NCBI GenBank assembly: GCA_001800275.1
Contig: MGVB01000117.1
Location: 1-34,546 of the forward strand
From: Elusimicrobia bacterium RIFOXYA12_FULL_57_11
GTDB lineage: Bacteria; Elusimicrobiota; Elusimicrobia; Elusimicrobiales; UBA9959
Reading direction: 5' to 3'
Length of the DNA: 34,546 nucleotides
Both the position numbers and the translations under genes were made by a program. The notes below the pieces were generated by a model that did no database searches, was not told the DNA's origin, and saw only the letters and a list, made by a program, of their open reading frames with translations. Shown piece after piece: positions 30,995 through 34,546 of this stretch. Position 1 is the stretch's first letter. Every line of letters starts with the position of its first letter.

Positions 30995-31519
30995 ATGAAC
31001 ATCCGGTGCGACCTTAACATAAACGGCGGCTCACGGCGCGCGCTCATAGCGGCCAAAGAGGAAGAAACGCCCGAGCACGTGGCCTTACGGCTGACCGCGG
31101 CCATACTTTTTTTTGACCAAGAACCGGCGCTGGACACCGGCCCGTCGGACCCGTCCGTGACCGATATCGGTTTTCTGCCGGACCTGATGGTGGGGGATGG
31201 CGCAGGCGGGGTAGCCGTCTGGATAGAATGCGGGAACGTCGCGGTGAATAAACTTACCAAAGTCGCCAGACGCATCCGCTCCGGCCGGCTGGTCATCCTT
31301 AAAGAAAGCGCGGAGGCGGGGCGCAGGATGCGGGAAGTTATAAAAAAAGAGATCTCCAAGGGGGAGAAAGTGGAAGTGTGGGCCTGGCCCAAAGAGGACT
31401 TCGCCCGCTGGACCGCGGCGATACACGAATCCAACTACATTTTCGGGGAAGCCTCCGGCTCCACCCTCAACCTGGTCCTAAACGAAACAGTATTCGACAC
31501 ACAGCTTATCCTCTGTTGA
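30995..31519 (+). CDS. YaeQ family protein
   Basis: ETPEHVALRLTAAILFF, LPDLMVGDGAGGVAVWIECGNVAVNKLTKVAR and NYIFGEASGSTLNLVLNETVF. GGAGGAG RBS before ATG 30995. Confidence 0.75.
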   Translation: MNIRCDLNINGGSRRALIAAKEEETPEHVALRLTAAILFFDQEPALDTGPSDPSVTDIGFLPDLMVGDGAGGVAVWIECGNVAVNKLTKVARRIRSGRLVILKESAEAGRRMREVIKKEISKGEKVEVWAWPKEDFARWTAAIHESNYIFGEASGSTLNLVLNETVFDTQLILC

Positions 31520-31557: not shown

Positions 31558-32457
31558 ATGGCGAAAAAAAGAAGAACTCTAATTATTAAAATCGGGGCGG
31601 CCGGGGACGTACTGCGCACCACACCGCTGCTCCATAAACTTTCCGGAGACGCCGTCACTTGGGTAACGGGCCGGACCGCGCTCCCGTTGCTGGCCGGCAA
31701 CCCGCGCATAGCCCGGGCACTCACCCCCGGCGGATTCAGCCGGATAAACGGTGAAAAGTTCGACTGGGTCATAAATTTCGACGAGAGCGCGGCCGCGTGC
31801 CGCATAGCGTCTGCCGCCCGGGCGCCAAGGAAGACAGGCGCCCGGCTGGACCGCGGGAAACCCGTGTACTGCGAAAGCTCCGCGCCCTGGTTCGATATGA
31901 GTCTCATAAGCCGGCACGGGATCCCCGCCGCAGATAAACTTAAGTACCGGGCGAGAAAATCTTATCAGGATTACCTGTTCGAGGCGTGCGGTTTCAAATT
32001 CGCCGGAGAGGAATACTTCCTGCCCACCGCCCCGGCCGGGGCTCTTGCCCCTCTTGTGGCGGTGGAAAAACGGGCCGGGCCGAAGTGGCCCCTGAAACAC
32101 TGGCCGGGTTATTGCAACCTGACGGCCCTGTTCAGGAAGAACCATATAAATTTTTTCATTCTCCGGCAGCGGAAAAATCTGCGGGACTACATCTCGGACA
32201 TCGGCCGGTGCACTCTCCTGGTTTCAGGCGACACCCTGGCGATGCACCTCGCGCTGGCCCTGCGCAAGAGCGCTGTGGCTATTTTCAATTGCACCAGCCC
32301 ATGGGAAATATACGGTTACGGAAGGCTGAGTAAAGTCGTAAACCCCGGGCTGGCCGGCATGTTCTACTCGCGCCGCGCCTTTGACGGGAAAGGCACTCAT
32401 GTGGCGCCGCAAACGGTGCTGCGCGCGGTCCTTAAGGCCGCCGCCAGGACGCCTTAA
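31558..32457 (+). CDS. Glycosyltransferase family 9 (heptosyltransferase-like)
   Basis: TLIIKIGAAGDVLRTTPLLHKL, FDWVINFDES and CTLLVSGDTLAMHLALALRKSAVAIFNCTSPWEIYGYG. Start at MAKKRRTL. Confidence 0.82.
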   Translation: MAKKRRTLIIKIGAAGDVLRTTPLLHKLSGDAVTWVTGRTALPLLAGNPRIARALTPGGFSRINGEKFDWVINFDESAAACRIASAARAPRKTGARLDRGKPVYCESSAPWFDMSLISRHGIPAADKLKYRARKSYQDYLFEACGFKFAGEEYFLPTAPAGALAPLVAVEKRAGPKWPLKHWPGYCNLTALFRKNHINFFILRQRKNLRDYISDIGRCTLLVSGDTLAMHLALALRKSAVAIFNCTSPWEIYGYGRLSKVVNPGLAGMFYSRRAFDGKGTHVAPQTVLRAVLKAAARTP

Positions 32458-32510: not shown

Positions 32511-32539
32511 ATAACATTAAGCGTTTAATGTGCTACAAT
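32511..32539 (+). promoter_or_regulatory. Predicted extended -10 promoter upstream of the small ORF
   Basis: ATAACA (32511-32516), 17-nt spacer, TACAAT (32534-32539) preceded by TG (TGCTACAAT). Start codon 48 nt downstream. Confidence 0.5.
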
Positions 32540-32586
32540 AGGATGAAATTACAAGCAGCTCATTTTCAGATCCGGTGAGCAAAAAA

Positions 32587-32715
32587 ATGGCTCCTAATAA
32601 CGGAAAAAACAAGAAGGCACAGGCAAAAAACACAAAGAAGGCGTACTTAAAGCCTTCCCTGACAAAGCACGGTTCGCTGAAATCGCAAACCGCCTCTTTC
32701 CGGACTTTCTATTAA
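32587..32715 (+). CDS. Small peptide with lasso/RRE-type leader motif (putative RiPP precursor)
   Basis: Manual translation: MAPNNGKNKKAQAKNTKKAYLKPSLTKHGSLKSQTASFRTFY. Contains YLKPSLTKHGSLKSQT = YxxPxLxxxGxLxxxT. GGTGAG RBS-like sequence upstream. Too short for the supplied ORF track. Confidence 0.65.
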   Translation: MAPNNGKNKKAQAKNTKKAYLKPSLTKHGSLKSQTASFRTFY

Positions 32716-32777: not shown

Positions 32778-33872
32778 GTGGATATCACGCTGCTTCCTTC
32801 AACATTCTTTTCCGACCCCACCTACAATCGCATACTGTCCGGCCTCAGCAGAGAATTCGTCCGCGCCGGCCACCGCACCTCCATAGTGTCGCAACAAATA
32901 TCCGCAGGGCCGCAACTCCGCTTAAACCCGGGCCCCGCGCCGCTAATCCTTACGCGCGACTGCCTTGCCCTCGCCGAAAAAGAGCGCCGCTCGGCGCTGC
33001 TGCGCGCGCTGGCCGGGCAGCTACCCCCGGGCGCGGTCCTCAACTTCCACTTTTCCGGGTGGCTGCGCGCCTGGCACGCACCGGTGCTGCTGTCAAAGCG
33101 GCTCGCCCGGGCACGCCTGGTGGTAACCTTTCACGATTACCGCCACCCGGACCTTCCGCCATTGACGAGCGCCACACGCCGCGCACTGGGGAAGATCCTG
33201 GACAGGGCCGCCCGCATAACCGCGGTCTCCGGCTTCCTGGCGCGCATGATACGCGAAGATTTCCCCGTTGTGTCGGACAAGCTCAACATAGTCCCTGACG
33301 GGACCGATGCTCCCTCTCCCTCCGGCGCGGCGCCTTTTACGCGCCGCCGGGCATACATACTCACCGTAGGCCGCCCGGCGCCCTATAAAGGGCTCGACCT
33401 GCTGATCTTCGCTTTCGCGGCGGCGATTGAAAAAGGATGCGCCTGCGATCTGGTGGTCTGCGGAACCGGCCGCCGCGGGCCCCTTGCGGATCTGGCCAAA
33501 AAGCTCGGAATAGGCGGGCGGGTACACTTTAAAGGCCTGCTGCCTCCGGGCGAAATCACCGCACTTATGAAGGCCTGCCTTTTCTACGCCACTACTCCGC
33601 GCTGGGAATCCTTCGGCATGTCGGCGCTGGAAGCGATGGCGGCCGGCAAAGCGGTCCTGGCGGCCAAAACCGGCGGTCTGGCGGAATTCGCCAGGAACGG
33701 GCACAACGCGGTCCTGGTCCATCCCGAAAACTCACAAATGGTTTCTTCCGCTATCCTGCGCCTGTGCGCCGACAAGGGCTTTAGAAAAAAACTGGCCGGC
33801 GGCGGCGCGGCGACCGCTCTTGAATATCCCTGGAAAAAAATCGCCGGGCGGTATCTCAGCGCTTACCGCTGA
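32778..33872 (+). CDS. Glycosyltransferase family 4
   Basis: ILTVGRPAPYKGLDLLIFAF, GRVHFKGLLPPGEITALMKAC and PRWESFGMSALEAMAAGKAVLAAKTGGLAEF. GTG start. Confidence 0.9.
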   Translation: MDITLLPSTFFSDPTYNRILSGLSREFVRAGHRTSIVSQQISAGPQLRLNPGPAPLILTRDCLALAEKERRSALLRALAGQLPPGAVLNFHFSGWLRAWHAPVLLSKRLARARLVVTFHDYRHPDLPPLTSATRRALGKILDRAARITAVSGFLARMIREDFPVVSDKLNIVPDGTDAPSPSGAAPFTRRRAYILTVGRPAPYKGLDLLIFAFAAAIEKGCACDLVVCGTGRRGPLADLAKKLGIGGRVHFKGLLPPGEITALMKACLFYATTPRWESFGMSALEAMAAGKAVLAAKTGGLAEFARNGHNAVLVHPENSQMVSSAILRLCADKGFRKKLAGGGAATALEYPWKKIAGRYLSAYR

Positions 33873-34546
33873 CACCGTCCGTCGCATGCGGCCAGGCGAG
33901 GTGGTCCGCGGCAAAGTTTTCGGAGAATTTATTGCCGGCCATTTTAACCTCGCAGGGGCCGTCCTCTTTGATACCGTGCCGGTTGGCCGCGAAGCTGTTG
34001 GAGTTAAGTTCAAGCTTGACACCTTCCCCGCACCAGATCCCATCCCACTCGCACCCATACACCGAGGTCATAGCCATACGCACCGTTGCGCCCCGGTCAC
34101 ATTTAAGCCCGGTCCTGTTGGCGGAGAATTCCGCCTTATCGATTACCACCGCGCCGGCGTGATCGGAAAAAACTCCGATATTGTTTTTCTTAAAGCCGGC
34201 GCCGGCAACCGAAACCGCTCCTCTGTCGGTGTAAATACCCGCAAAGGAATTGTTCTCAAAAACCCCGCCGCAAACGCTCAGCGAGGCATCTTCCTGTATC
34301 CAGACGCCCCTGTCGCAGCCGTTCACGGAACTGTCGGACAGGCGGAGACGGACCCCGCTGGTGGCCTCTATGCCAGTCTGCGCCGCGCGGACAGCCGAAC
34401 CCGAAATATCGGCGGCCGAACAGGAATGCAGCGCGAAGCCTGTTTGCGAGCGCAGGATCGCGACAGCGGCCGCGGTCAGTTTCCCGGCCACGCAAGTCAC
34501 CCCCGCGCCGGCGATGTCCGTCAGCGCACAGTCGCGGATGGCGGCC
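33856..34546 (-). CDS. Right-handed parallel beta-helix repeat protein (5' part beyond window)
   Basis: Roughly 22-residue repeats such as LSVCGGVFENNSFAGIYTDRGAVSVAGAGFKKNNIGVFSDHAGAVVIDKAEFSANRTGLKCDRGA. The frame stays open to the window end. Confidence 0.75.
   Translation of the reverse strand, partial: AAIRDCALTDIAGAGVTCVAGKLTAAAVAILRSQTGFALHSCSAADISGSAVRAAQTGIEATSGVRLRLSDSSVNGCDRGVWIQEDASLSVCGGVFENNSFAGIYTDRGAVSVAGAGFKKNNIGVFSDHAGAVVIDKAEFSANRTGLKCDRGATVRMAMTSVYGCEWDGIWCGEGVKLELNSNSFAANRHGIKEDGPCEVKMAGNKFSENFAADHLAWPHATDGVSGKR

Follow-up and report, generated by a model that had tools for sequence, protein, structure and literature searches.

In the mycofactocin system (MftA/MftB/MftC/MftF), a small RRE-bound precursor with a C-terminal Tyr is accompanied by a radical SAM enzyme and a glycosyltransferase, and the core of MftA has the form IDGxCGVY. 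We know of no identified precursor for the SynChlorMet and HPr-rel-A/GeoRSP cassettes. RREs, HprK-like kinases and YxxP peptides recur in capsular polysaccharide loci, where the role of paeninodins and LPPs has been stated to be unknown, and LPPs have been described as restricted to Bacillota (Popov et al. 2026, PMC13381572). Mutations in the RRE protein LppB revealed the importance of D70, which hydrogen-bonds with the leader Tyr, and of N33, which is associated with the kink at the leader Pro (PMC13381572). The motif of lasso-precursor kinases, as seen in BsfK, comprises H, G..G.GKS and DD (PMC10368454).

The window that we analysed is a stretch of 34,546 nucleotides from Elusimicrobia bacterium RIFOXYA12_FULL_57_11 (genome G000; contig MGVB01000117.1), and near its right end it encodes a peptide that is likely to be a precursor in an RRE-guided, non-lasso modification system of Elusimicrobiota surface-glycan loci. 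The gene, MAPNNGKNKKAQAKNTKKAYLKPSLTKHGSLKSQTASFRTFY (32587-32715, forward strand), opens with an ATG at 32587, closes with the stop codon at 32713-32715 and specifies 42 amino acids, exactly as claimed by a sequence-only reading of the window. The RBS-like GGTGAG noted in that reading is present at 32574-32579 (forward strand), 7 nt upstream of the ATG, and an alternative in-frame GTG start at 32575 (46 amino acids) is unsupported because orthologues align from the ATG. Also present is the extended -10 promoter candidate TGCTACAAT (32531-32539, forward strand; at -56), whose 7/8 fit to TGnTATAAT is by itself not significant, in that an equal score is reached by about 5% of 150-nt segments taken at random from the window. 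This element is kept in two congeners, G026 and G014, with 8/8 versions at -47 and -51 upstream of their respective orthologues, and a 7/8 version is located at -45 in genome G093. Within the peptide, a putative RRE-binding leader motif, Y20LKP23SL25TKHG29 (32644-32673, forward strand), is proposed from its invariant residues and from an RRE fusion and its model described below, and the C-terminal tail ASFRTFY occupies 32692-32712 on the same strand. The pattern YxxPx[LIVMFA]xxxG occurs only once among the 591 stop-to-stop frames of at least 30 amino acids in the window.

The peptide gene is genuine and its tail is under purifying selection. Identity of the peptide is 68% to its orthologue in G026 and 64% to that in G014 (Elusimicrobia bacterium GWA2_61_42, contig MGTU01000028.1), and the three genes have the same ATG, the same YxKPx[VIL]xKHG core and the same ASFRTFY end, despite synonymous changes in most of their codons. 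Nei-Gojobori estimates of dN/dS are 0.27/1.19 for the window gene against that of G014 (0.17/0.92 for motif plus tail) and 0.21/0.90 for G026 against G014, again with lower values for motif plus tail. Across 17 family members, the Y, P, H and G of the leader motif are invariant. One element of the sequence-only reading does not hold, namely the Thr at position -2 as part of the leader signature: Thr is found there in the window peptide, Ile in both nearest orthologues and other residues elsewhere.

A profile (A1) built from the 17 members matched the peptide in 40 of the 235 genomes of the class that were searched (E <= 0.01), and 39 of these genomes were kept, one match with an E-value of 0.004 being left out of the count. 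The profile found no match in the genomes of the phylum outside the class. The tails, which span 6-10 residues, fall into three types, each of which keeps its own neighbouring enzymes, although this pattern is partly confounded with phylogeny since type II is limited to one family of genomes. Furthermore, the neighbourhoods come from draft MAG contigs of one bacterial class, with genes called by our own caller. Type I tails end in Tyr and vary in length (ASFRTFY in the window, G014 and G026; elsewhere ASFSYTY, AAFSALY, AAFSLLY, RAFQLLY and TALA[RH]SY). The last six residues of the type II tail, ASAFKP, are the same at 16 loci in spite of variable third codon positions (motif plus tail: pN 0.062, pS 0.55), and its neighbours are genes for a radical SAM enzyme, an RRE, a MAT-like acyltransferase and HprK, without GT4. 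The type III tail is LSIVEGD, with GT4 pairs as neighbours. The window genome has two peptides, the type I peptide described here and a paralogous type II peptide on contig C160 (L053:489-590), whose gene comes immediately after a PqqD gene.

Two further arrangements are recorded as separate observations. At one locus (L099:463-549 and 650-757), tandem, near-identical leader peptides with different tails sit behind one PqqD gene. When HprK-positive genomes without a profile match were examined for peptides, one divergent candidate emerged (L146:4032-4187), a precursor with a longer, Trp-rich core, AYKAPKLLAFGLLSMAAFPGGAMAQSWWGWW, located between PqqD and two GT4 genes in a cassette of the same make-up as the others, with GT2 and HprK present; no peptide was found in the other genomes of this set.

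The window genome encodes three PqqD/RRE genes (PF05402), one of them probably about 5 kb past the right end of the window, and PqqD/RRE genes are present in all 39 confident peptide genomes versus 106 of the 235 overall. At type II loci, PqqD and peptide genes overlap or directly adjoin each other, and in genome G230 (L108:7548-7925) the two are fused into one 125-residue protein in which the RRE is followed by ...KFSYSKPQLTRHASLEQKSYAWATY. No further fusions were found in 20 additional RRE loci that were searched. The leader peptide of this fusion ends in WATY. The family RRE profile is nearest to TbiB1 (5v1u/5v1v, E 1.4e-21), with TfuB1 (6jx3), PbaB1 (9x90) and LppB (9x8z) as other close relatives, and the structures of all four have been solved with leader peptides. 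The equivalent of LppB D70 is an Asp in 26 of 27 family RREs and the equivalent of N33 is an Asn in 20 of 27; both are carried by the RRE encoded on contig C57 of the window genome.

When the fusion was modelled with AlphaFold from RRE rows alone, the pTM was 0.66 and the peptide stayed loose and undocked (pLDDT 59-65), whereas a block alignment with peptide rows gave a pTM of 0.82, a pLDDT of 93 around Y104-P107, a strand at L109-R111 and a free tail. Docking in the model thus depends on the peptide rows, because only the alignment with those rows docked the peptide; whole peptides aligned together with RREs came out misplaced. The docked model, made for a fusion that comes from another genus than the window genome, is matched best in the PDB by the leader complexes of TbiB1 and TfuB1. 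The fusion, the co-occurrence, the pocket residues and the AlphaFold model agree in suggesting that the leader docks on the RRE.

In the window genome, the RRE, the kinase-like gene and the peptide gene are each on separate contigs. The 3' part of a beta-helix gene (33856-34546, reverse strand; PF13229) is broken by the end of the window contig (C117) and corresponds to amino acids 981-1200 of a 1206-residue homologue in G014. Amino acids 1-223 of this homologue are matched by the terminal part of contig C57, adjoining the RRE gene. These are the only two matches to the homologue in G000, and therefore C57 and C117 probably lie on either side of a roughly 2.3-kb gap within a single gene, which would most likely place the C57 RRE gene (C57:10589-10873) about 5 kb from the window peptide. 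In G014 and G026, where the same RRE operon shares a contig with the peptide gene, the distances are 63 kb and 48 kb, respectively. Besides this RRE gene, C57 would bring two radical SAM genes and genes for one GT4, one GT2 and two divergent glycosyltransferases into the neighbourhood of the window. Upstream of the peptide gene is a gene for a GT9 (heptosyltransferase-like) glycosyltransferase (31558-32457, forward strand; PF01075, E 2e-6; mechanical ORF open from a GTG at 31378), whose position is matched in G014 and G026, and directly downstream is a GT4 gene (32778-33872, forward strand; PF00534, E 2e-31). The product of the latter clusters with the GT4s next to the type I peptides of G014, G026 and G093 (support 97/94). 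Among the neighbours anticipated from the sequence alone, genes for an RRE, an HprK-like kinase, radical SAM enzymes and an ABC exporter do occur in the system; the anticipated B2 protease was not found in the genome, and asparagine-synthetase homologues are found only off these contigs.

Other contents of these regions are noted in their own right. Contig C28 of G014 (L036, L110-L112) and contig C52 of G026 (L113-L115) hold runs of at least eight genes for B12-binding radical SAM and radical SAM/SPASM proteins inside the peptide/RRE superlocus. At L053:939-2528 the ORF of an ABC-transporter ATPase domain also encodes a histone-deacetylase-like domain (PF00850), and at L052:968-3028 another such ORF includes a DegT aminotransferase-like domain (PF01041).

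We propose that the leader segment KAYLKPSLTKHG would dock as a beta-strand on a discrete RRE of the lasso B1 type (PqqD fold), which in the window genome is most likely the one encoded on C57. The modifying enzymes to which the RRE would then present the short tail ASFRTFY are most likely the HprK-like protein, acting as a kinase, and the linked glycosyltransferases, namely the adjacent GT4, GT2 and GT9. The product would be phosphorylated and/or glycosylated, probably uncyclised and perhaps uncleaved, and may enter a surface-glycan locus served by ABC-2 export. This proposal builds on what the computations show, namely a real gene under selection, the linkage of leader and RRE, the joint occurrence of the peptide with the HprK-like and GT2 genes, and neighbours that are specific to each tail type. 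A universal Ser target is excluded because the type I tail RAFQLLY has neither Ser nor Thr, and Tyr42 is favoured as a putative type I target because Tyr is the sole hydroxyl residue common to type I tails. For type II, the tail Lys and the FabD-like acyltransferase fit a possible Lys acylation, although this idea is weakened by G014, where the RRE has a MAT-like gene nearby and yet the only peptide is of type I. No leader peptidase was recognised for the peptide family, so the peptide may never be processed.

A related explanation, which we consider somewhat unlikely, is that the ribosome makes the peptide as a primer or carrier. Its leader would be retained while GT4, GT9 and GT2 assemble a surface glycan on the RRE-held tail, on the C-terminal Tyr or on Ser/Thr, and the glycopeptide would then be exported or handed over. 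GT4 comes immediately after the peptide in 10 of the 14 type I loci, and an eleventh has GT4 in the operon (the remaining loci are mostly at contig ends). Every type I tail ends in Tyr even as its length varies, no peptidase has been found to remove the leader, and the loci include ABC-2 exporters, many glycosyltransferases and UbiA prenyltransferases. However, paeninodins and LPPs are also usually found in glycan-rich surroundings with no primer role shown (PMC13381572), the ASAFKP tails of type II have neither a Tyr nor a GT4 neighbour, and the GT4 sequence gives no sign of accepting a peptide.

It is also somewhat doubtful that the peptide is simply another LPP- or paeninodin-like linear phosphorylated peptide, for which the HprK-like protein would be the sole primary modifier and the glycosyltransferases mere neighbours. 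An RRE, an HprK-like kinase, a capsule-type locus and a linear precursor are indeed shared with LPPs (PMC13381572), and the co-occurrence of peptide and HprK-like protein is nearly perfect. The HprK-like family (c5) is single-copy in 44 of the 235 genomes, comprising 37 of the 39 that bear the peptide and seven others (Fisher p 1e-33), and within the genus it occurs in 15 of 15 peptide genomes versus 0 of 17 without the peptide (p 2e-9), although these p-values overstate the significance because genomes of one class are not independent. The family retains LHR.HA, GxxGxGK[TS] and SDDTPL, and the one copy in the window genome (C72:286-1302) has the kinase motif. Kinase activity is nevertheless a guess from this motif because the family is very divergent: NCBIfam matches (E about 1e-5 to 1e-2) are far below the cut-offs, and comparison of the profile with known structures gave no significant HPr kinase (best 1ko7, E 0.06).

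What argues against the HprK-like protein as sole modifier is that GT2 (family c8) co-occurs equally tightly, with matches of E < 1e-75 in 43 genomes, 41 of which are also HprK-positive (counted from lists), and that the neighbouring enzymes shift with tail type. In the window genome, the HprK-like and GT2 genes are both on contig C72, right after the end of a MAT gene begun on C160. One locus (L045) has RRE, GT9, GT4, GT2, HprK and peptide genes in a single same-strand run, and the G014 peptide is about 4 kb from both GT2 and HprK. Furthermore, the LPP leader consensus and the long variable core are absent, and no signal-peptidase-like gene was seen next to types I-III among the neighbours that were profiled. 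A bolder reading, which we regard as unlikely, is that the RRE-held peptide acts as a scaffold that can be used repeatedly to build a surface glycan or glycolipid, with the tail end specifying the module: glycosyltransferases for tails ending in Tyr or VEGD, a radical SAM enzyme plus an acyltransferase for ASAFKP. If true, the peptide would prime envelope polysaccharide under RRE guidance and would not be the precursor of a natural product.

A lasso peptide, or a degenerate remnant of one, is very improbable. Features shared with lasso systems are the YxxPxL leader (Y20, P23 and L25 in the window, with Y and P invariant in the family), the B1-type RRE with its closest relatives TbiB1 and TfuB1, and a weak match to the NCBIfam model lasso_cyano (17.4 bits versus a cut-off of 33). 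The conserved leader Thr at -2 is not a feature of the family, and the tail of 6-7 residues lacks the Asp or Glu that lasso cores have at ring position 7-9, as had been read from the sequence. No B2 peptidase (PF13471) above the family cut-off was found in 10 genomes, including G000, which itself gave no match (there was one sub-cut-off match among the 10), an absence that rests mainly on the other nine genomes because the G000 MAG is 82% complete. In G000, G014 and G026, the contigs with the peptide, RRE or HprK genes encode no lasso cyclase (PF00733), and the PF00733 proteins that do occur are full-length and on other contigs. Finally, the tail is selected, not decaying. A classical lasso precursor is thus ruled out. 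Even less credible is the view that the ORF is spurious or encodes a small protein without any connection to RREs, such as a basic nucleic-acid-binding peptide; a short, Lys-rich sequence with no Pfam match might invite it, but selection, motif invariance across many genera, the RRE fusion and the co-occurrence data contradict it. The original suggestion of a non-lasso RiPP, or of a peptide that reuses an RRE leader, is supported, and none of the three points on which it had been said to stand or fall (conservation in close relatives, substitution rates and an RRE-type gene in the genome) told against it. Beyond the reach of that reading were the conserved GT4, GT9 and GT2 partners, the ASAFKP paralogue in the same genome, the division of the tails into three types and the fusion of RRE and peptide.

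How, then, does this RRE-guided, non-lasso precursor family relate to the systems already described? Paeninodin/Bsf-type lasso peptides (PMC10368454) have an HprK-like kinase with the same motif and, in some members, Ile or Val near position -2, but they differ in having a B2 protease, a cyclase, an acidic ring residue and a far longer core. The SynChlorMet and HPr-rel-A/GeoRSP cassettes (TIGR04248-TIGR04251, TIGR04352/53, TIGR04302/03) share the combination of PqqD-like, HprK-like and radical SAM/SPASM proteins, but their profiles give only weak matches, far below the curated cut-offs, and the cassettes are defined by other genes. Mycofactocin is similar in its C-terminal Tyr and in the company of radical SAM and glycosyltransferase genes, but here there is no IDGxCGVY-type core, and the tails end in SFRTFY, AFSALY, TALARSY and the like rather than in Val-Tyr. 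We searched the open-access literature and found no description of this peptide family, and papers on Elusimicrobiota RiPPs or lasso peptides yielded nothing.

The closest parallel is with LPPs (Popov et al. 2026, PMC13381572), which likewise combine an RRE for a YxxP leader, an HprK-like kinase and a linear precursor in capsular-polysaccharide-type loci without a cyclase. However, the LPP leader is YxxPxVLxHQxIxFETxxS, whereas the Elusimicrobiota family has YxKPx[LIV]xxHG without FET, and the LPP core is long, variable and phosphorylated at Ser3, whereas the tail here is short and invariant, with one type I tail free of Ser and Thr. The family is linked to GT2/GT4/GT9 or to radical SAM enzymes and acyltransferase, and it occurs in Elusimicrobiota rather than in Bacillota. 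The signal-peptidase-like leader peptidase of LPPs is not among the profiled neighbours of types I-III and is seen only beside a different peptide in the window genome, that of contig C69. This separate cassette (L054:3937-5464) encodes an HprK-like protein, a PqqD protein, a short protein of the signal-peptidase/S24 type and the 45-residue peptide MKNKKPYVKPAIKSEKVFETAALACGKCITGPTGQLSCKTLKKFS, of which L129 of genome G009 has a near copy. The cassette is LPP-like in its peptidase and in the YxxPxI...FET motif of its peptide. Next to it (L054:5443-9931) are prepilin-like genes (N_methyl; carboxypeptidase-regulatory and lamin-tail domains), homologues of which also adjoin type III peptide loci (L103, L104 and L150).

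To judge from these comparisons, the family appears to work like LPPs and paeninodins, yet neither its leader nor its core fits the LPP pattern, and we therefore file it among the RRE-guided, HprK-linked peptides as a new form. A separate phylum seems to have the same combination in stripped-down form, in which a leader is joined to an invariant tail of 6-10 residues with no cyclase and no recognised protease. Such minimal substrates should make the role of these peptides beside glycan genes directly testable, and they indicate that RRE leaders are also found on peptides that score below the cut-off in standard lasso models.
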